NCBI GenBank assembly: GCA_003599855.1
Contig: QZKG01000047.1
Location: 1-64,000 of the forward strand
DNA: 64,000 nucleotides
DNA from: Gaiellales bacterium
GTDB lineage: Bacteria; Actinomycetota; Thermoleophilia; BMS3ABIN01
Reading direction: 5' to 3'
Shown: positions 32,620 through 50,879 of the stretch, one piece after another
How positions within the stretch are numbered: position 1 is the first letter of the stretch
Layout: the number at the start of each line of letters is the position of its first letter
Translations under genes and position numbers: made by a program
The notes under the pieces: generated by a model
Databases searched by the model: none
Told to the model about the DNA's origin: nothing
Seen by the model: only the letters and a program-made list of their open reading frames with translations

Positions 32620-35082
32620 CTACATAGAGGCCCCAGGCAGTTCGTCGAAGGAGTTGTAGTAGGTCGTCCTCTGGCTAACGACCAGCGGCTGTCCTTCGAC
32701 GCTGCTCTTGACCTGGACCGGGCCGTTCATCTGGCCCGGGAAAGTCGGCGTTACCCGCCCGCCGGCCGGGACGTTATAGCGCCCCACCAGCTGGTTGCCG
32801 ATCTTTATATCTACCACGGCTTCCTCCTGGCTCTGGTTGCCCACCAGAATCCAGGTCTTCATGCCGGTGGAGGCGTTGTCGTACCACGCGAACCACTGGT
32901 CGCAGTTGAGCTCGGCCGGCGTGACCCCGGGGACTTCCTCGAAGGAGCCGCGGAATACCGAGCGCTCGCTCACCATGAGCGGCTGTCCATTGCTGGACAC
33001 GACCCGCACCGGGCCGTTCATCAGATTCGGGAAGTTGGGCGTGACCCTGCCGCCGGCCGGGACGTTATAGAAGCCTGCCAGCTGCCCGCCGATATAGACG
33101 CCTACCTGGGCGGTCTGGGTACCCTGATTGCCGATAACGACCCAGGTCTTCATGCCGGCGCTCTGCTGGTCGTACCATGTGAAGTGATACTCGGTCCCGA
33201 GCTCTGCCGCCGTACGGCTCCTGACCTCATTGAAGGTGCCGTTATAGGTGACCCGCTCGCTGACCGTGAGCGGCTGGCCATTGCTGCTGACCACGCGCAC
33301 CGGACCGTCCATCACGCCATGGTATTGAGGCGCGACGCTGCCGCCGGCAGGCACCGAGTAGTGCCCGACGTTGCGACCGGCGATGAACACATCGACCTCA
33401 GCGGTGCGGCTGCCCTGATTGCCCACCATCAGCCAGGTGTTCATGCCCTGGCTCACCTGGTCATACCAGGACAGGTAATGTTCCGTACCGAGATCGGCCT
33501 GGGGTGTGGCCGGCAGTTCCGAGAACGAACCGTTCATGGTCACCCTTTCACTCACCAGCAGCTCGCGTCCCGCAAGAGAGACCACCTTCACCGGGCCTTT
33601 GGCGACACCGGCATACCTGGGGGTCACCCGCTCGTGAGCGGCTACATGATAGCTTCCCATGAACGACCCGCCGATATAGACTTCCACGTCCTGCCCCGTT
33701 TCGGTCGGATTGCCGATCACGAGCCAGGTCCTCATGCCCGGGGATGCGTTGTCATACCAGCCGAAGAAATAGTTCTTCTCGTGGCTGTTATCCACGGTCA
33801 CTTCCACAGATCGGGTGCTCGTGTTGCCGGTAGCGTCGTAGGCCTTTGCGGTCACAGAGTAAGAACCATCAGCCAGAGAGCGGGTATAGATATGCGAGCC
33901 ATAGGGCGCCGAAGTCTTTGTATCGATCAGCCTGTCGCCGACGTACAGCTCCACCTTGCTGATGCCGCTGCCATCAGAAGCCGAGATCTCGACGGCAACC
34001 GTGCCAGAAAGAGTCGCACCCGGTGACGGTGAATCGACAGATACCACCGGCGGCTCCGAGTCCGGCAGGCTCACAGCCTGCCGGAATGCATCCAGGCTCT
34101 GCTGGGAACTGTTGATACGCCAGTCCGTTTCCTTGTTGATGTGGAACCAGGTCACCATCTCCATCTTCGGGAATCTGGAGGGGATGATGCTGAAAGCGTC
34201 GGTTATCCAGCGGGCCTTGCCGCCGTTCTGGGCATTGCCTCCGATCTCAGTGGAGGCCGTCTCGCTGACTACGATCGGCTTGCCGGTACGCTGTACCGCT
34301 ACGTCGTAGCTGTACTTGAAGACTTCTTCGAAGCTCTGCCACGACGAGGTCCAGGTTGGCGTGTTGTACATGGTCCCCCAGTTGTACCCGTTGATACCTA
34401 CGTAGTCCACGTAGCTGTCGCCCGGGTAGTAGGTATCGAAGATGCTGTTGGCATCGGCGTAGGAACCGGCGCGGTTAGGCGACCAGATGAACTTGACATT
34501 GTCGGCGCCTTCCTGCCGGAAGATGTCGTGGATATGCCGCCACGCCGGTATATAGTCGGCTGGCGAGTTGCCGTTGGCGGTGCCGCCCCAGGCGACCCAG
34601 TCACCGTTCATCTCACACATGGGCCGGAAATAGATCGTATAGCCGAAATCCCTCAATTCACGCGCCCAGCGGCGGATCTGAGTGTCGTGGTTGCCTGCGG
34701 TAATAGTATTAAGCCGGTATTCAGGCTGGTTGTTGGGATCCTTGGCGAAGTTATGCGGTTCCCAGGAAAGCTGGATGATGCGCCCCTCTTCAGCATACGG
34801 CCTGAATGTGTCGGCATAGAATGATTCACTGATCGATTCGTACCAGAGAAACACGTCGATCTGACGGCCGACCGTGGACTCGAACTGGTGGATATCATCG
34901 ATCGTCGGCAACTGCTCGTCGGGAAACTCCGGGTCGGGGAAGAACACGCCGACCTTGAGTTGTGACGGCTCGACTGCGACGGCGTTTCCCGCGGGGATCG
35001 TAACGAAGATCGTCAGAGATATGAGCGCCGCAGCAATCAAGACAACGGCGGAGATGCTGGCTGTGATGCGAGCCCTTGACAT
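32620..35082 (-). CDS. Secreted GH26-like glycoside hydrolase with Ig-like domain and four C-terminal repeats
   Basis: 820 residues. A signal peptide or anchor (residues 1-36) precedes a TIM-barrel of the GH26 beta-mannanase type, with the acid/base motif IYFRPMCEMNGDWVAW (Glu157) and nucleophile region GKPIVVSETAST (Glu274). An Ig-like domain follows at ~345-431 (PPVVSVDSPSPGATLSGTVAVEISASD). Four tandem ~95-residue repeats (438-815) each begin WYDxxSxGMxTW and end near VSERxTxxxSFxELP. It should hydrolyse a beta-linked polysaccharide outside the cell. Its leader carries a c-di-GMP-I riboswitch and a sigma-28-like promoter. It is divergent from the epimerase-GGDEF/synthase operon, which suggests it trims or releases that polymer. 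No LPxTG anchor is seen. Confidence 0.88.
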   Translation of the reverse strand: MSRARITASISAVVLIAAALISLTIFVTIPAGNAVAVEPSQLKVGVFFPDPEFPDEQLPTIDDIHQFESTVGRQIDVFLWYESISESFYADTFRPYAEEGRIIQLSWEPHNFAKDPNNQPEYRLNTITAGNHDTQIRRWARELRDFGYTIYFRPMCEMNGDWVAWGGTANGNSPADYIPAWRHIHDIFRQEGADNVKFIWSPNRAGSYADANSIFDTYYPGDSYVDYVGINGYNWGTMYNTPTWTSSWQSFEEVFKYSYDVAVQRTGKPIVVSETASTEIGGNAQNGGKARWITDAFSIIPSRFPKMEMVTWFHINKETDWRINSSQQSLDAFRQAVSLPDSEPPVVSVDSPSPGATLSGTVAVEISASDGSGISKVELYVGDRLIDTKTSAPYGSHIYTRSLADGSYSVTAKAYDATGNTSTRSVEVTVDNSHEKNYFFGWYDNASPGMRTWLVIGNPTETGQDVEVYIGGSFMGSYHVAAHERVTPRYAGVAKGPVKVVSLAGRELLVSERVTMNGSFSELPATPQADLGTEHYLSWYDQVSQGMNTWLMVGNQGSRTAEVDVFIAGRNVGHYSVPAGGSVAPQYHGVMDGPVRVVSSNGQPLTVSERVTYNGTFNEVRSRTAAELGTEYHFTWYDQQSAGMKTWVVIGNQGTQTAQVGVYIGGQLAGFYNVPAGGRVTPNFPNLMNGPVRVVSSNGQPLMVSERSVFRGSFEEVPGVTPAELNCDQWFAWYDNASTGMKTWILVGNQSQEEAVVDIKIGNQLVGRYNVPAGGRVTPTFPGQMNGPVQVKSSVEGQPLVVSQRTTYYNSFDELPGASM

Positions 35083-35490: not shown

Positions 35491-37044
35491 TTGAAACAAG
35501 TTAAGACACTGACTATTTTCGGGACCAGGCCTGAGGTGATCAAGCTTGCTCCCGTTATTTTTCAGCTCGACGCTTCTCCTCATTTCGATTCCGTCCTCGT
35601 CTCCACTGGCCAGCACCGGGAGATGCTGCAGCAAGCGATGGCCCAGTTCGGCATCGAGCCTGATTTCAACCTGGATATCATGAAGCCAGGCCAGGCGCTG
35701 AGCGATATCACCGTCGAATCCCTGCGGGGCACCGAGCAACTGATAGCTGAAGAGGAGCCGGATCTCGTCATTGTGCAGGGTGATACGACCACCGCCTTCG
35801 CCGGTTGTCTGGCTGCTTTTTACCAGCAGAAGTCCGTAGCCCATGTCGAGGCCGGGCTCCGGACATACGACAAGTACCGTCCGTTCCCCGAGGAGATCAA
35901 CCGTTCGATGATCACCCAGCTGGCGGACCTCAACTTCGTCCCGACGCTCACCGCCTGGGACAGCCTCCGCCGGGAGGGTATATCCGATGACAGGATATTC
36001 ATCACCGGCAACACGGTGATCGACGCGCTGTACTATATGGTGAAGCCGCAGTACTCCTTCATCAACGAAACCCTGCGCACAGTTGACATGGACAAGCGGG
36101 TTGTGGTGGTCACTTCACACCGTCGCGAGAACTTCGGTGAGCCGATCAGGGAGATCTGTGCCGGCGTCGCTGAGCTGGCACAGCGGTTCGAGGATATTGA
36201 GATAGTCTTCACGGTCCACCGCAACCCCAAAGTGCGGATGCCGGTTGAAAGCATGCTGGGCGGTTTTCCGCGAGTCCATCTGGTCGACCCGCTCGACTAC
36301 CCCGACATGGTAAACCTGCTGTCTCGTTGCTACATGGTCCTTACCGACTCTGGGGGGCTTCAGGAGGAGGCCCCGGCGCTCGCCAAGCCAGTCCTGGTGC
36401 TGCGGGACGTCACCGAGCGCCCTGAAGCCGTCCAGGTGGGAATGGCGCGGGTCATCGGCACCTCCAGCAGAGCCGTGGTCGCGTCGGCTTCCGAGCTGCT
36501 GGACGACAGGGCGGCATACGAATCTATGGCGAGGGGCATCAGCCCCTACGGCGACGGCAAGGCGGCCGAGCGCATCATCGGAGCTATCGAGTATTCAAAC
36601 GGCATAAGGGCGGATATGCCCGAGCCGTTCGTGAGCTGGCCGGCGCTGCCGGTAACGGGTGACCCGGCCGTAATCGAGCATCCCGCCAGTGACGAACTGT
36701 TCTACCGACAGCTGGACGAAAGGATCGCCAGGGCCAGGAAACAGAGGCGAAAGGTCTCGGTCGCTACTTTCGATCTGACCAGGACAGACAATCTCCAGTT
36801 CAACCAGGCAGTCAAAGCGATCACGCACAGCCTGCGTGAATCGGACACCGCAGCGGCCCTCGAGGGAAGACGCCTGGTGCTGGTCCTTCCAGGCGCGGGC
36901 GAAGAGCAGGCCCAGCGCGCTGCAGACAGGCTGCTCGAACAGCTGTCCGAGCCGCTCCACGGGCTCGAGGATGCCCTTAGCGTCGACATCAAGACGTACG
37001 AGAACGACGAACGGGAAGTCGACAGCACGGCGGCGATCGGATGA
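35491..37044 (+). CDS. wecB: UDP-N-acetylglucosamine 2-epimerase fused to a degenerate GGDEF domain
   Basis: 517 residues from the TTG at 35491, which follows GCGGAGG; an upstream GTG at 35461 gives a basic, non-homologous extension. Residues 1-~385 are a complete non-hydrolysing epimerase: FGTRPEVIKLAPVIF, TGQHREML, VQGDTTTAFAG, HVEAGLRTYDKYRPFPEEINR, VTSHRRENFGEPI, LTDSGGLQEEAPALAKPVLVLRDVTERPE. It interconverts UDP-GlcNAc and UDP-ManNAc. Residues ~401-510 (DNA from about 36691) align with GGDEF domains: LDERIARARKQRRKVSVATFDL, then RESD (36835-36846), five residues, EGRRL in place of GGDEF, then LVLVLPGAGEEQAQRAADRLLEQL. The cyclase is dead but the inhibitory-site RxxD spacing is kept, as in c-di-GMP receptors of the PelD type. 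It is first in the synthase operon. Confidence 0.9.
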   Translation: MKQVKTLTIFGTRPEVIKLAPVIFQLDASPHFDSVLVSTGQHREMLQQAMAQFGIEPDFNLDIMKPGQALSDITVESLRGTEQLIAEEEPDLVIVQGDTTTAFAGCLAAFYQQKSVAHVEAGLRTYDKYRPFPEEINRSMITQLADLNFVPTLTAWDSLRREGISDDRIFITGNTVIDALYYMVKPQYSFINETLRTVDMDKRVVVVTSHRRENFGEPIREICAGVAELAQRFEDIEIVFTVHRNPKVRMPVESMLGGFPRVHLVDPLDYPDMVNLLSRCYMVLTDSGGLQEEAPALAKPVLVLRDVTERPEAVQVGMARVIGTSSRAVVASASELLDDRAAYESMARGISPYGDGKAAERIIGAIEYSNGIRADMPEPFVSWPALPVTGDPAVIEHPASDELFYRQLDERIARARKQRRKVSVATFDLTRTDNLQFNQAVKAITHSLRESDTAAALEGRRLVLVLPGAGEEQAQRAADRLLEQLSEPLHGLEDALSVDIKTYENDEREVDSTAAIG

Positions 37045-37144: not shown

Positions 37145-37264
37145 ATGTACGGAGCATTACTTCCGGTTACCGGAATCGCGATAGGCCTCTACCTCGTAGT
37201 GGCGATTATAGTAGTGATAGTCGGCTCGCTGATGAAGCTTAGGGGAGGGCGCGAGAAGAGCTGA
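37145..37264 (+). CDS. 39-residue single-helix membrane peptide
   Basis: The frame begins MYGALLPVTGIAIGLYLVVA and ends MKLRGGREKS. It is one long hydrophobic helix with a basic cytoplasmic tail. GAGGAGGTG, six bases before the ATG at 37145, is the best ribosome-binding site in the region, so the peptide is very likely made in quantity. It lies 100 bp after the epimerase gene and 42 bp before the synthase gene. It may be a small subunit or regulator of the membrane synthase, as small membrane subunits accompany other GT2 polymer synthases; that role is inference. I recognise no family. Confidence 0.72.
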   Translation: MYGALLPVTGIAIGLYLVVAIIVVIVGSLMKLRGGREKS

Positions 37265-37306: not shown

Positions 37307-40210
37307 TTGACGGACACACTCAAACAAAAGGATGAAAAGGGACTTGCCAGGCGGAACGCGTTTCTTTTAGCGGCAGGGGACGAGCAGTCGGGCAACGGCA
37401 ACCTGTGGAACAAGGCGGCATTCAGTCTTGTCCTGCTGTCATTTCTCCTCATTTTTCTCACTGGCGGGCTCAGAGCCTCGGCACAGGATATCGACGAAAC
37501 AGGTGTCCTGCAACCGGCGGTTCCGGAATCAGCCAGAGACGAACCGGCTCCCAAAGTCCTGATTGTGCATGATCAGGATTACGATGACGAGTTAGCATCA
37601 CAACTCGCGGCACTCCTGGGGCATTTCACCATTGACACTGCCATCGTCGAGGAAGCCTTCTATCAGAACGGCTGGGTCGAGAGATTCGACGCGACCTTCT
37701 TCATAGGCGGCACCCACAGGGACATCAATCCCGCTTTCCTCGATGATGCTTTCGGCACGGACAGGACGATCGTCTGGCTGGGGCGCGGCATCGATCAGCT
37801 CGATGCCCGGCACCCGCTTTCGTCAAGGTACGGGTTCGCGTACGGACGCGTGGATGCCTCGGGTGAGTTCACTGACGTCAGTTACAAGGATGTCGCGCTA
37901 CAGAAGACGGATCCGGTCACGGCCATCTCTTATGTGACTGACGAGAACAAGGCCCGCGTAATGGCCTGGCTGGAAGGTCCGGACCAGCCTGAGCCATACG
38001 TGATCCGGAGCGGCAACTTCTGGGTTTTCGCGGATATCCCCATGATCCAGGCTGGCGACAGTTCTGCCTACCTGGTGCTGGCGGACCTGCTGCACGACGC
38101 TCTGGAAAGACCTCATGCTGAAGAACACCGGGCGATGGTCCGCATCGAGGACGTCCACCCCAACATAGAGACAGCATACTTCAACCAGCTGGTGAGCTAC
38201 CTCTACAACCATGAGATCCCTTTTGCTGTCGCGCTGATCCCAGTTTACGTGAACCCCGATACCGGTGAGGAAATCCATCTCTCCGACCGGCCTGATTTCG
38301 TCAAGGCAATCAGGGAAGCCGAACGCAAGGGTGGTGTCGTCGTTCTCCACGGTTATACGCACCAGCTTTACGGCATGACCGGGGTGGACCACGAGTTCTG
38401 GGACAACCGCGTGGGGGCTTTCCCGGAAAACGAGACAGTCGAATCCATCAGGGACAAGGTGGAGTCGGGACTGAGGGAGGTCCGGGCGGCCGGCATCGAC
38501 CCCGTCATCTGGGAGACGCCGCACTATAACGCTTCCGGTCTCGTTCACAAGGTGGTGGCCCAGTACTTCTCTGTGGCCTGGGAGAGAAGGGACGCGCCGT
38601 TCTTCCCTTATGTAGTCACCTACCCTGATACCGGCCAGACGCTTCTGCCAGAGACGCTGGGCTACATCCGCGGTGAGGAACACCCAGCAGCGGACCTCCT
38701 GAAAGTCGCCGACAAGCAGCGGGTCGTACGGGACGGATTCGCCTCGTTCTTCTTCCACCTGCACATCAAGGAATCGCAGATGCGCGAGATGATCGACGGC
38801 CTGGAAGACAGAGGCTACGTGTTCGCCCCGCCGGCGGAGGTCGCTGGACTGCCATATACACCTCCGGAACCTCCCTCCTGGCTGAGCAAGTTCGCCAGCG
38901 GAGTTTCGGAGCACGTGGGGGCTTTCATCCCGCAGGGACTGAAGCAGATGAGTTCGGCAACAGTGCTGACACTGCTGGCCATCTTCATCATTTTTTACTA
39001 TTGGGGCATCTTCTTACTCAGCCGCAAGCCGCCCTCTTACAAGGGTGAATATGACCCGGACCTGCTGTTCGTCGTCGTCGTCCCGGCGCTGAACGAAGAG
39101 CTTGTGATCGGGAAGACGCTCGACCACCTGCTCTCGTTGAAGGATGACAACCTCCTGATCCTGGTGGTCAATGACGACTCGGACGACGATACCAGGGACA
39201 TCGTACTGGGCTACCCGCAGGACAGGGTGAAACTGATCGACCATCCCCGGGCTCTGTCGCGCCAGGGGAAAGGGCGCGTCCTGAATTATGCTTTCCGTTA
39301 TCTGATGGCGAGCGACATCGTCAAACAGAAAGGCACCAGCAAGGTCATCTACGGAGTTCTTGATGCGGACGGCCGTGTGGAGAAGAACCTGGTCTCCGAA
39401 ATCAACCCCTATTTCGCCGACCCCCGGTCAGGCGCTGTGCAGGTGGGGGTGCGGATCTCGAACGCCAACACCAACATCCTTACCAAATGGCAGAACTTCG
39501 AATTCCTTGCTTTCGCCCGCCTGGCCCAAAAGGCTCGCGAGCACCTAGGCAGCGTCGGCCTGGGAGGCAACGGGCAGTTCGTGCGCCTTTCGGCCCTTGC
39601 CAGCCTGGGCTCGGAGCCCTGGACTGACTGCCTGACCGAAGACCTTGACCTGGGCATACGGCTGATGCTCAAGGGCTGGCAGAACCATTACTGCTCCAAT
39701 ACCTTTGTCGCCCAGCAGGGTGTCCCGACGATGAAGGCTCTTATCCGCCAGCGTACCCGCTGGTTCCAGGGGCATCTCACCTGCTGGCGGCACATACCTG
39801 CGCTCTCCTACCGGCACAAGGAGCCGTCAGCGCGTATCGATACCATCTATTACCTGCTGGCACCCCTGATGGTATTCGTCTTCCTGCCCAGCTCTTTGCT
39901 GTTCATCATGTGGTCGGTGTACTTCATCGCCACCGGGGCATCCTCACTGACGTTCTCGCCTCTTGACTACATCCCGGCGATACTGATCTGGTATCTGTTC
40001 TCTTTCGGCGCCGTGCCAACGGTGGTCTGGACCTTCTGGCGTGAGGAGAAGGACATGTCGGGCTGGAAGGCTTTCCTCTGGGCCCACATCTTCTCTTTTT
40101 TCTACATATTCTGGTTCCTGGCTGGAATCAAGGCCGTCATCCGGCTGGCGCGCGGCGAAGGTTCCTGGGTCAAGACCGGGAGGGTCCGGGAAGTCCATCA
40201 GCATCCCTGA
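37307..40210 (+). CDS. DUF2334 deacetylase-like domain fused to processive GT2 polysaccharide synthase
   Basis: 967 residues with a TTG start. An N-terminal helix or signal anchor lies at ~35-55. The extracytoplasmic DUF2334 polysaccharide-deacetylase-like domain has VRIEDVHPN near 278 and GVVVLHGYTHQ near 346. A helix at ~550-570 leads to the cytoplasmic GT2 domain: VVVVPALNEE, NDDSDDDT, DADGRV, TEDLDLGIRL and the processive-synthase motif QRTRWFQGH (QxxRW). Three or four C-terminal helices follow. This matches PgaC/BcsA-like synthases that polymerise and extrude a beta-linked chain, here with a putative deacetylase on the outer side of the same chain. The upstream epimerase suggests UDP-GlcNAc or UDP-ManNAc as donor. 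Confidence 0.9.
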   Translation: MTDTLKQKDEKGLARRNAFLLAAGDEQSGNGNLWNKAAFSLVLLSFLLIFLTGGLRASAQDIDETGVLQPAVPESARDEPAPKVLIVHDQDYDDELASQLAALLGHFTIDTAIVEEAFYQNGWVERFDATFFIGGTHRDINPAFLDDAFGTDRTIVWLGRGIDQLDARHPLSSRYGFAYGRVDASGEFTDVSYKDVALQKTDPVTAISYVTDENKARVMAWLEGPDQPEPYVIRSGNFWVFADIPMIQAGDSSAYLVLADLLHDALERPHAEEHRAMVRIEDVHPNIETAYFNQLVSYLYNHEIPFAVALIPVYVNPDTGEEIHLSDRPDFVKAIREAERKGGVVVLHGYTHQLYGMTGVDHEFWDNRVGAFPENETVESIRDKVESGLREVRAAGIDPVIWETPHYNASGLVHKVVAQYFSVAWERRDAPFFPYVVTYPDTGQTLLPETLGYIRGEEHPAADLLKVADKQRVVRDGFASFFFHLHIKESQMREMIDGLEDRGYVFAPPAEVAGLPYTPPEPPSWLSKFASGVSEHVGAFIPQGLKQMSSATVLTLLAIFIIFYYWGIFLLSRKPPSYKGEYDPDLLFVVVVPALNEELVIGKTLDHLLSLKDDNLLILVVNDDSDDDTRDIVLGYPQDRVKLIDHPRALSRQGKGRVLNYAFRYLMASDIVKQKGTSKVIYGVLDADGRVEKNLVSEINPYFADPRSGAVQVGVRISNANTNILTKWQNFEFLAFARLAQKAREHLGSVGLGGNGQFVRLSALASLGSEPWTDCLTEDLDLGIRLMLKGWQNHYCSNTFVAQQGVPTMKALIRQRTRWFQGHLTCWRHIPALSYRHKEPSARIDTIYYLLAPLMVFVFLPSSLLFIMWSVYFIATGASSLTFSPLDYIPAILIWYLFSFGAVPTVVWTFWREEKDMSGWKAFLWAHIFSFFYIFWFLAGIKAVIRLARGEGSWVKTGRVREVHQHP

Positions 40211-47516: not shown

Positions 47517-50500
47517 CTACTCGGTGTAGGCCGTGTAAGCTATTGAAGTGGCGTAATTGCCAGACACAACCGAGGCCGGCACGACGAACTCGTAATCGTA
47601 CATCAACGACGTCAGCGGGGTGGGAGGCTGGCTGCTGAGGATGACCGTCTCCGACGGCGCCTTTACGAAGGGCGTATAAACCCCTCCCCCGTCGATCTTC
47701 CATCTGAGGTTACCGATGCCGATGATGTTGGCCGGGCTGATGGTGTGCACCAGGTCATCGGTGGCTGACACTTTGATACCCCAGTTGATATTGGACGAGA
47801 CGGAAAGCTTGACGGCGTACTGGGGAGAAGCCGTGTCGCCGACATAATACGTCATCCCCGGGTCGAGGCTGCCGAAGTTCACTGAGCCGCTGCCGGCGGT
47901 GCCGTCGCGATTGAAGGTCTCATCAACGGTCAGGGTGATCGATCCCGGCGGCGGGATATACTCGACGACGAGTTTGGGATAAAGTGTCGGGTCGCTCCAC
48001 TCGGATGAATAGAACAGGCTGCAGTCGAACGAAGCCGCATTCTCAACGCTCTTCTTGATGATGACGCCGTTGTTGGGGATGGCGCCATCGATCCAGCCCT
48101 GGGCCAGGCTTCTGACATCCCAATCTATCCAGGCGCCCGCAACCGGCGGCGCGACTACGCTGGCGCTGGCCGTGGCGTCATAATCACCACCGGAGGTTGT
48201 CCAGAGGCTTGCGCCATCTTTCGTATCCCATGTCGCGCCGTCACCCGAAGCCGTCAGCTCGCCGGTGCCCTCGGTCCAGCCTCCGGTCAGGTAATGCAGG
48301 TCCAGGGTCCTTGGCACCCCGCCGATCTGGCTGTACTGGTAAAAGGAGATCGTGGCGCTGTTGACAGTCGACCCGGCCGGGATGGCAGAGAGGTCAAACT
48401 GGGCCATGGGCCGGAACGACTGCCAGAAAGGTCCCAGGTCGCCAGCCACGTGGATGGTCCACGAGCCGTTGTTGTAGGTCGGCTGGCCCCTGACTATCGT
48501 AGCATCCTTGCCATCAGCCGGGCCCGGCTGGATGATTACCTGCACCGCCGTCTGGAAAGTGTGGTCTCCCGAGATGGTCTCGTTGCCGGCGGGATCGACG
48601 GAACGGACGCGATAATGGTAAAGGGTGTTCTCGGTCAGGCCAGTCAGCGGAACGGCGTGCTGGTTCACCAGCGAGCTGTCGAGGGGCGTCGTGGATCCGT
48701 AGCTGGTAGTGGTGCCGTACTCCACCTGGGTGGTGGCCGCCTCGTCCGTGGACCAACTGATCCCGGCTGTCGTCGTCCTGACGTTCTCGGAGCGGACGTC
48801 GCCGATGGCCGGGCCTGTGACATCATCTCCCAGCCATTCGATGACGAGCTTCGGCCTGAGCGAGGGGTCAGCCGCGTAATTCGAGGAGTAGAAGCCCTTG
48901 GCGTCAGTGACCGCCGGGTTCTCGACAGCCTGCCTGATGAGAAGGCCGTTATTGCTGACACTCCCGTTTACCCACGCCTGGGTCAGGGCCGTCAGGTCCC
49001 AGTCGACCCAGATGTTAGTGGCGTTCGGCGCCAGCGTCGAGGCGCTTGACCCGGCATTGTAATCGCCGCCCGGAAGCGACCAGGGGGCAGCGCCGTCAGA
49101 AGAAGTCCAGGTGGCGCCGTCGGCTGTTGCAGAACCGGCCCCGGTCCCTTCCGCCCAGGATCGGGCAAGATAGTGGGCATCGATCATCTGCGGGCTCGCG
49201 TCACCCTGATACCATTGGTAGAGCGACATTGTGGCGCTGCTGATGGTTGAACCCGCCGGAATGGTGGAGAAATCGAACTGGAGCAGGCCACGGATGGTCC
49301 CCCAGTCCCCTGCGTTTATGTCGCCGGCTCCCAGGTTGACGTCGGCCCCCATATTCCAGTCAGTCCGATTGCTGCGCAGAAAGGTGTCTTTTCCGAGCCC
49401 CGGTGATAGCTGCAGGATGGTGAGGTTGGCGGTCTTGAAACTCTGCTCGGCAGAATAGGTCACGTAGCCGGCAGCGTCGGCTGAGCGCACCCGGTAATAA
49501 TAAGTAGTGCCCTGCTGCAGACCGGTAAGCGCCTGGTTATGGCTCACGACCCTGGTCGGATCGAGCGTGGTTGAACCGATGTACACGCCAGGGCTGGTGC
49601 CGTACTCCACCTGGGAATCGGCCGGCTCGCTGGTCGTCCAGCTGATATTGGCCCCGCTGCTCGTGATTCCGCCTGCCGCTACAGACGATATGGCCGGGGG
49701 ATTGTTGTCGACGTTGACCTGGACCGAGGCGGTGCTGACGTTATACGCGCGGTCAGCAACGGTCAGGCGCAGGGTATAGAGGCCGTCTGCGACACTGGTG
49801 GTCCCCCAGGAACCCAGCGTGCCGGCTGTGACCGGGCTGTAGGCAGTCGCACCTATCTGGGACCACGTGGCTGGCGCTGCTCCAGCGCCGTACTCCAGTC
49901 TATAATTATAAAAACTGAACGCGTCAGAGGCGGTGCCGGCAATCGTCAGATTGCCTGAGACGTAAGCTGTTGGGGCAGGCGACGTGATCGCTGCTACAGG
50001 AGATGACCCATCGATCTGGATCATGCGGGACATCCGCTCGATGTTTCCACCGCCGCTGGGTGCCCGGAGCCTGGTGCCTACCCAGTACCAGTCCCCATCT
50101 GTAAGCCCCCCTGAAGGCAGCGTCAATGAGAAGCTGTAAAGGTTGCCGGTTTGTGTCACCGCGGGGGCGCTCCATGTATAGACATTCCCTCCCGTAAAGT
50201 TGTAGATGCGGTTGGCGTTGCCTGTCCTGCTGGCGCTGTAGGGCCGGCCGTCACCGTAAGCTGTAACGTAAATGTCGCTCCCGGGCCGGAATGTGGTGGA
50301 CAGGTCTGTCCTGGCTGCATCGGCGTAGAAAGCGAAGGGCTGGTTCAAGCCGCTGATCTCGATGAATTCCTCAAAACTCACTGACTGGTTGTATGTGATG
50401 ACGCCGTCGAGCTTGGTGGCGCTCGCAGCGGCAGTTATTGCAGCAGTGTAAACATATGGAGGACCACCTGGCTGCTTCGTCCATGATACTGTCCCGCCGA

Positions 50501-50822
50501 GCTGCGACTCGTCGAAATCCATCTGGCGCAACTGGCTGCCGGAGCCATTATTGGTCACGCGGTTCGTCGTCACACGGACATAAATGGTCTGGCCGGGGTT
50601 GAAGCTCGTTGTCGGGACCGTACAGGCGGCATCCGAGCAGACCTCGATGATATCGCCATTGGACTCGGTGTAGTAACCGGCGGGGCTGACGACGGCGCGG
50701 GACAGGCCCGCTGAGAAAAGAAGCACCACGACCAACAGCAACAGCATTCCGGCTGCGATATAGGTCAGCCGATTCCCCATCAAGGTAAGCGTTTGTGAGC
50801 GACTCCGATTGAGGAGGCCCAT
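47517..50822 (-). CDS. Large surface adhesin-like protein with fibronectin-III and DNRLRE-type modules
   Basis: About 1101 residues from the ATG at 50822 (AGAAGGG upstream; a GTG at 50843 is possible). A signal anchor (YIAAGMLLLLVVVLLFSAGLS) precedes N-terminal beta domains, an Ig-like domain (SSPVAAITSPAPTAYVSGNLTIAGTASDA), then two copies of a fibronectin-III plus DNRLRE-like pair (ISWTTSEPADSQVEYGTSPG .. TYYYRVRSADAAG .. GKDTFLRS, and ISWSTDEAATTQVEYGTTTS .. LYHYRVRSVDPAGN .. GKDATIVRG). A ~140-residue WxL-like beta domain ends the protein (YDYEFVVPASVVSGNYATSIAY). It is likely a secreted carbohydrate-binding or adhesion protein. It follows the 50880 gene on the same strand by 57 bp. Confidence 0.85.
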   Translation of the reverse strand: MGLLNRSRSQTLTLMGNRLTYIAAGMLLLLVVVLLFSAGLSRAVVSPAGYYTESNGDIIEVCSDAACTVPTTSFNPGQTIYVRVTTNRVTNNGSGSQLRQMDFDESQLGGTVSWTKQPGGPPYVYTAAITAAASATKLDGVITYNQSVSFEEFIEISGLNQPFAFYADAARTDLSTTFRPGSDIYVTAYGDGRPYSASRTGNANRIYNFTGGNVYTWSAPAVTQTGNLYSFSLTLPSGGLTDGDWYWVGTRLRAPSGGGNIERMSRMIQIDGSSPVAAITSPAPTAYVSGNLTIAGTASDAFSFYNYRLEYGAGAAPATWSQIGATAYSPVTAGTLGSWGTTSVADGLYTLRLTVADRAYNVSTASVQVNVDNNPPAISSVAAGGITSSGANISWTTSEPADSQVEYGTSPGVYIGSTTLDPTRVVSHNQALTGLQQGTTYYYRVRSADAAGYVTYSAEQSFKTANLTILQLSPGLGKDTFLRSNRTDWNMGADVNLGAGDINAGDWGTIRGLLQFDFSTIPAGSTISSATMSLYQWYQGDASPQMIDAHYLARSWAEGTGAGSATADGATWTSSDGAAPWSLPGGDYNAGSSASTLAPNATNIWVDWDLTALTQAWVNGSVSNNGLLIRQAVENPAVTDAKGFYSSNYAADPSLRPKLVIEWLGDDVTGPAIGDVRSENVRTTTAGISWSTDEAATTQVEYGTTTSYGSTTPLDSSLVNQHAVPLTGLTENTLYHYRVRSVDPAGNETISGDHTFQTAVQVIIQPGPADGKDATIVRGQPTYNNGSWTIHVAGDLGPFWQSFRPMAQFDLSAIPAGSTVNSATISFYQYSQIGGVPRTLDLHYLTGGWTEGTGELTASGDGATWDTKDGASLWTTSGGDYDATASASVVAPPVAGAWIDWDVRSLAQGWIDGAIPNNGVIIKKSVENAASFDCSLFYSSEWSDPTLYPKLVVEYIPPPGSITLTVDETFNRDGTAGSGSVNFGSLDPGMTYYVGDTASPQYAVKLSVSSNINWGIKVSATDDLVHTISPANIIGIGNLRWKIDGGGVYTPFVKAPSETVILSSQPPTPLTSLMYDYEFVVPASVVSGNYATSIAYTAYTE

Positions 50823-50879
50823 GCCATCCCTTCTTCCGGACACGCGAAATCCTTTGCCCTAAAAGGTTTTCAGATAATC

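Follow-up and report, generated by a model that had tools for sequence, protein, structure and literature searches.

A WecB-family UDP-GlcNAc 2-epimerase fused to a degenerate GGDEF domain with conserved I-site residues, linked to a likely exopolysaccharide synthase in uncultured Actinomycetota

The stretch of DNA analyzed here (64,000 nucleotides of a Gaiellales bacterium; hereafter, the window) encodes, in one open reading frame (ORF), an epimerase of the WecB/MnaA family followed by a shortened GGDEF-like tail. The protein and its parts are as follows.

35491–37044, + strand: WecB/MnaA epimerase–degenerate GGDEF fusion, a single ORF of 517 residues
35491–36594, + strand: non-hydrolysing UDP-GlcNAc 2-epimerase domain of the WecB/MnaA type (residues 1–368)
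36595–36684, + strand: linker (residues 369–398), modeled with low confidence
36685–36999, + strand: degenerate, shortened GGDEF domain (residues 399–503)
36772–36774, + strand: D428, aligned with the first metal-ligand aspartate of canonical GGDEF domains and invariant in the fused homologues
36835–36846, + strand: RESD, the RxxD of the primary I-site (R449, D452), with R and D invariant in all eight fused homologues
36862–36876, + strand: EGRRL (residues 458–462), in place of the GGDEF signature
36928–36930, + strand: R480, counterpart of the third I-site arginine in the alignment, 31 residues after R449 and invariant in 8/8 homologues

The ORF starts with TTG at position 35491, and its homologues start at the identical position with ATG or TTG. 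The first-pass annotation had placed a WecB-family protein here, and both its position and its family proved right: the TIGR00236 profile matched residues 4–368 over its full length with 483 bits, above the curated equivalog threshold (cut-off, 210), and PF02350 scored 391 bits. The top PDB matches of the domain were MnaA/WecB structures, with 42–48% identity to most of them. The motifs QGD, HVEAGLRT, FPEEINR, and TSHRREN, which we take to be the catalytic motifs of WecB/MnaA, are all found in the domain, as are those that presumably contact the allosteric UDP-GlcNAc. Judged by its sequence, the epimerase part is an intact WecB/MnaA, predicted to convert UDP-GlcNAc to UDP-ManNAc. No other WecB was found in the source genome (90.7% complete). 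Within the linker, PAPF-S is conserved across the fused homologues.

The relationship of the tail to GGDEF domains was supported by several comparisons. The Pfam GGDEF profile (PF00990) matched residues 436–503 just above its cut-off (24.3 versus 23.8 bits; E = 2.9e−5), and a whole-genome scan recovered the same match as the weakest among 18 GGDEF domains. In a profile–profile comparison of the eight fused tails with 12 canonical GGDEF domains, of which the source genome contributed eight, hhalign returned a probability of 97.9% (E = 6e−13). The tail was modeled with AlphaFold from an alignment of the eight tails alone, with canonical GGDEF sequences excluded, and the result had moderate confidence (pLDDT 65.7) and the predicted order helix-strand-helix-strand-strand-helix-strand; the full-protein model had the same elements at residues 402–503. 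In a fold search with the tail model, 50 of the 50 best PDB matches were GGDEF domains (TM-scores of about 0.5–0.7), including PelD (26% identity) and the c-di-GMP-bound PleD, DgcR, and GcbC. The profile and structure-prediction checks proposed in the first-pass annotation thus returned a GGDEF fold, supporting the tail as a GGDEF homologue in both sequence and predicted fold. The claim that the likeness extends along the whole length did not hold: the tail lacks the N-terminal D-x-LTGL-x-N segment of canonical domains, has an 11-residue deletion across the DxFKxiNDxxGHxxGD substrate loop, and stops short of the final helix. An active diguanylate cyclase is ruled out because EGRRL replaces the signature, the NDxxGH loop is deleted, and D428 is the sole metal ligand of canonical domains that survives; the loss of catalysis noted earlier is clear in the sequence.

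As described in the first-pass annotation, RESD at residues 449–452 is followed by five residues and then EGRRL, a spacing found in seven of the eight fused homologues (G010 has three extra residues). R480, which had not figured in that annotation, aligns with R390 of PleD and R237 of DgcR. The I-site of PleD consists of R359, D362, R390, and an arginine from the neighboring subunit, and that of DgcR consists of R206, D209, and R237; R449, D452, and R480 match both registers, the interval from the first to the last arginine being 31 in all three proteins. Seven of the 28 charged positions in the tail are invariant, all three I-site residues among them (p of about 0.011), and the tail retains only four of the 22 residues that do not vary among canonical GGDEF domains, two being those of RxxD (p of about 0.026); both values are suggestive only, because they come from small-sample counts that ignore relatedness. 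D409, E410, R419, and D428 are equally invariant among the tails. Furthermore, all 12 canonical GGDEF domains compared, from the source lineage and its relatives, have the R and D of RxxD. RxxD is therefore ancestral in the lineage, and by itself is weaker evidence for a preserved I-site than had been implied, whereas R480 and the conservation in 8/8 homologues strengthen that proposal. With RxxD and a third arginine in register, the tail has the sequence features of an I-site receptor of the PelD/PssE/YdaK type, and it can be regarded as a candidate member of that group.

The genome search suggested in the first-pass annotation showed that the fusion recurs, among the genomes sampled, in the family of the source bacterium only: eight of the 19 family genomes, spread over four genera, carry it, and the other genomes of the same class, about 380, all lack it. 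No sampled WecB of the phylum outside the family has a C-terminal GGDEF domain, and these proteins end near residue 366–395. When 84,980 species were scanned for two peptide patterns, a method that can miss divergent or independent fusions, only five loci were returned, all in metagenome-assembled genomes titled Actinomycetes or Thermoleophilia and all corresponding to genomes of the source lineage. Recurrence in eight genomes of four genera rules out an assembly chimera, and the sampled WecBs outside the family rule out the tail as a general WecB feature. Purifying selection acts on the tail (dN of 0.11–0.37 against near-saturated synonymous change); given this and its recurrence, the fusion is not a product of chance. 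In one genome (G012, locus L016), an unfused epimerase orthologue adjoins the synthase gene, the tail having been lost without a remnant; because epimerase and synthase remain side by side there, the tail is not indispensable. In another (G015, L013), neither the synthase nor the 39-aa ORF described below is present, and the tail is truncated ahead of its last strand; the gene in G017 is interrupted by a contig end. The closest sequence match of the tail is the lineage's own GAF-GGDEF protein (34% identity), but RxxD contains one more residue in that family (RQDVD), which leaves the protein as only a candidate parent of the tail. RQDVD before GGDEF is conserved in the GAF-GGDEF family (L039, L040, L042, L045–L048, L066, L068, L069, L074, and L076), and the product inhibition of these proteins may be altered or lost through the additional I-site residue. 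A search of the open-access literature for a fusion of GGDEF with UDP-GlcNAc 2-epimerase found no description, in agreement with the earlier statement that none was known.

Three genes flank the fusion gene.

32620–35082, − strand: secreted GH26-like glycoside hydrolase carrying an Ig-like domain and, at its C terminus, about four repeats, divergent and upstream of the fusion
37145–37264, + strand: 39-aa ORF with one transmembrane segment (MYGALLPVTGIAIGLYLVVAIIVVIVGSLMKLRGGREKS) and a strong Shine–Dalgarno sequence, directly upstream of the synthase gene
37307–40210, + strand: the next large gene, a membrane protein in which DUF2334 (predicted polysaccharide deacetylase) is fused to a processive-type GT2

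The last protein, the likely exopolysaccharide (EPS) synthase, has hydrophobic segments and, in its GT2 part, the motifs DADG, EDLDLG, and QRTRW; its NCBIfam matches (XrtP-associated glycosyltransferase, PgaC/IcaA) all scored below the cut-offs. The 39-aa ORF, with LPVTG, one transmembrane segment, and a basic end, resembles an isolated LPxTG sorting signal, and the source genome encodes two sortases. This ORF preceded the synthase gene in every synthase locus examined and was present in eight genomes of the family, namely seven with the fusion and G012, in which the epimerase is unfused; G015 is without it. The fusion is thus linked in a conserved cluster to the DUF2334-GT2 synthase and the small membrane ORF. 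The GH26-like gene, conserved in two further loci (L081 and L085), encodes a possible polymer-trimming enzyme, and rpoD follows the cluster. A second DUF2334 protein is encoded elsewhere in the genome (G000:C1:14678–16096, − strand, in a 1007-aa frame), with 39% identity over the DUF2334 half of the synthase. A protein of 1108 aa, probably secreted and carbohydrate-binding, is encoded at positions 47517–50843 (− strand) of the window; it contains Disaggr_repeat, CBM96, a purple-acid-phosphatase N-terminal domain, and fn3. A further 17 GGDEF domains are encoded in the source genome, so that the cell very probably contains c-di-GMP. The genome also encodes glycosyltransferases of the WecG/TagA type, which may use UDP-ManNAc as well.

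Our favored explanation, at a probability of about one half, is a soluble c-di-GMP receptor of the I-site type that is joined to a precursor enzyme and would couple the supply of UDP-ManNAc to the synthase. This reading is based on the similarity of the parts to those of the pssA-E and ydaJ-N operons, with the candidate receptor here lying in one protein with the UDP-ManNAc-producing enzyme. A GGDEF domain that had shrunk and lost its catalytic function would have become fused to WecB; dimeric c-di-GMP, bound at the candidate I-site (R449, D452, and R480), would cross-link one tail either to another or to a partner, and the output of the epimerase would thereby be coupled to the adjacent deacetylase-GT2 synthase. 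Control would presumably take the form of activation, and the polymer would contain the sugar supplied by UDP-ManNAc. The coupling would more likely act by docking the epimerase at the synthase, with local delivery of the precursor, than by switching turnover. Allosteric gating is a possible alternative to docking, but that c-di-GMP on the tail directly switches the epimerase, so that the second messenger controls precursor supply by allostery, seems to us unlikely: the fusion protein is the sole WecB found and enzymes of the WecG/TagA type may need its product, so that strict gating could starve another pathway.

Tethering without c-di-GMP binding is possible, though clearly less likely than the favored explanation. 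The tail would then be a pseudo-GGDEF interaction or dimerization module that binds WecB to the synthase or to itself, with RxxD structural or merely inherited; such a role is consistent with the near-universal RxxD in the GGDEF domains of the lineage, with the missing substrate loop and terminal helix, and with Q-L-D-E, R419, and D428 in the first helix and strand, whose equal invariance would suit an interface. It accounts less well for the invariance of three I-site residues, including R480, although most canonical invariants have been lost. The gene neighborhood is as suggestive of a receptor docking on, or controlling, the adjacent synthase as it is of the direct gating of the epimerase by c-di-GMP raised in the first-pass annotation. 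A tail binding c-di-GMP on behalf of the synthase only, with the epimerase a mere carrier whose activity and supply role are unchanged, would follow the established pattern of synthase-linked degenerate-GGDEF receptors such as PssE, YdaK, and PelD, and the distribution of the tail nearly follows that of the synthase and the 39-aa ORF. However, those three receptors stand alone, unfused to a precursor enzyme, and G012 has the synthase without the tail, and we consider this explanation quite improbable. Least probable, and in our judgment very much so, is a decaying passenger domain that an earlier gene fusion left behind and that no longer has a role. The tail has evolved about 1.1–2.7 times faster than the epimerase part, and its loss in G012 and truncation in G015 would fit decay, but its dN is far below the saturated synonymous divergence and 35 of its columns are invariant over four genera.

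Known c-di-GMP control of exopolysaccharides targets the synthase or accessory subunits, and in the open-access literature we found no description of such control at the supply of nucleotide-sugar precursors; the novelty of the present case is stated with respect to that literature and the genomes sampled. If the proposed receptor role is true, a receptor within a precursor enzyme would place control on, or provide a physical link to, sugar supply. It would also imply a testable c-di-GMP-controlled, possibly ManNAc-containing polymer in uncultured Actinomycetota, and would mean that degenerate GGDEF domains have been recycled as sensors in new enzyme contexts.

The cluster in the window encodes a GT2 synthase, DUF2334, a glycosidase, and a degenerate GGDEF domain together, and it resembles the Pss and Yda loci in parts and arrangement rather than by direct sequence comparison. 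PssE of Listeria, which the Pss EPS requires, has a degenerate GGDEF domain (DKDDA) that keeps RxxD and binds c-di-GMP with a Kd of 0.79 µM, and the Pss polymer, a ManNAc-Gal exopolysaccharide, has an N-acetylmannosamine backbone (PMC4125290, PMC5422440). As in the fusion, RxxD lies five residues before the lost signature and a GT2 synthase gene adjoins, and N-acetylmannosamine is the sugar whose UDP donor WecB makes; in contrast, PssE is a separate protein without an epimerase, and a BcsB-like subunit is additionally encoded in the Listeria operon. Bacillus subtilis has a DUF2334 gene, which we take to be that of YdaL. YdaK of the same species is a degenerate-GGDEF c-di-GMP receptor whose RxxD is needed to drive EPS production by the ydaJ-N operon, which encodes a glycosyl hydrolase and glycosyltransferases (PMC5422440, PMC13274460). 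The degenerate GGDEF domain with RxxD and enzymes of these kinds in the cluster are shared features, but YdaK has four transmembrane segments and works only in the membrane, whereas the receptor proposed here is predicted to be soluble and is part of WecB. The degenerate GGDEF domain of PelD binds dimeric c-di-GMP via R367, D370, and R402 (PMC2170427, PMC8461298). Like the tail, it has RxxD and a further arginine; unlike the fusion, PelD is a membrane protein with a GAF domain and no fused enzyme, and R367 and R402 are 35 residues apart, not 31. BcsE is a soluble c-di-GMP receptor for EPS with a degenerate GGDEF-like domain (PMC8461298) and is similar in these respects, but it regulates cellulose synthase and is not a nucleotide-sugar enzyme. 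Unfused WecB/MnaA proteins share the epimerase domain and end near residue 366–395, where the fusion continues into its GGDEF-like tail.
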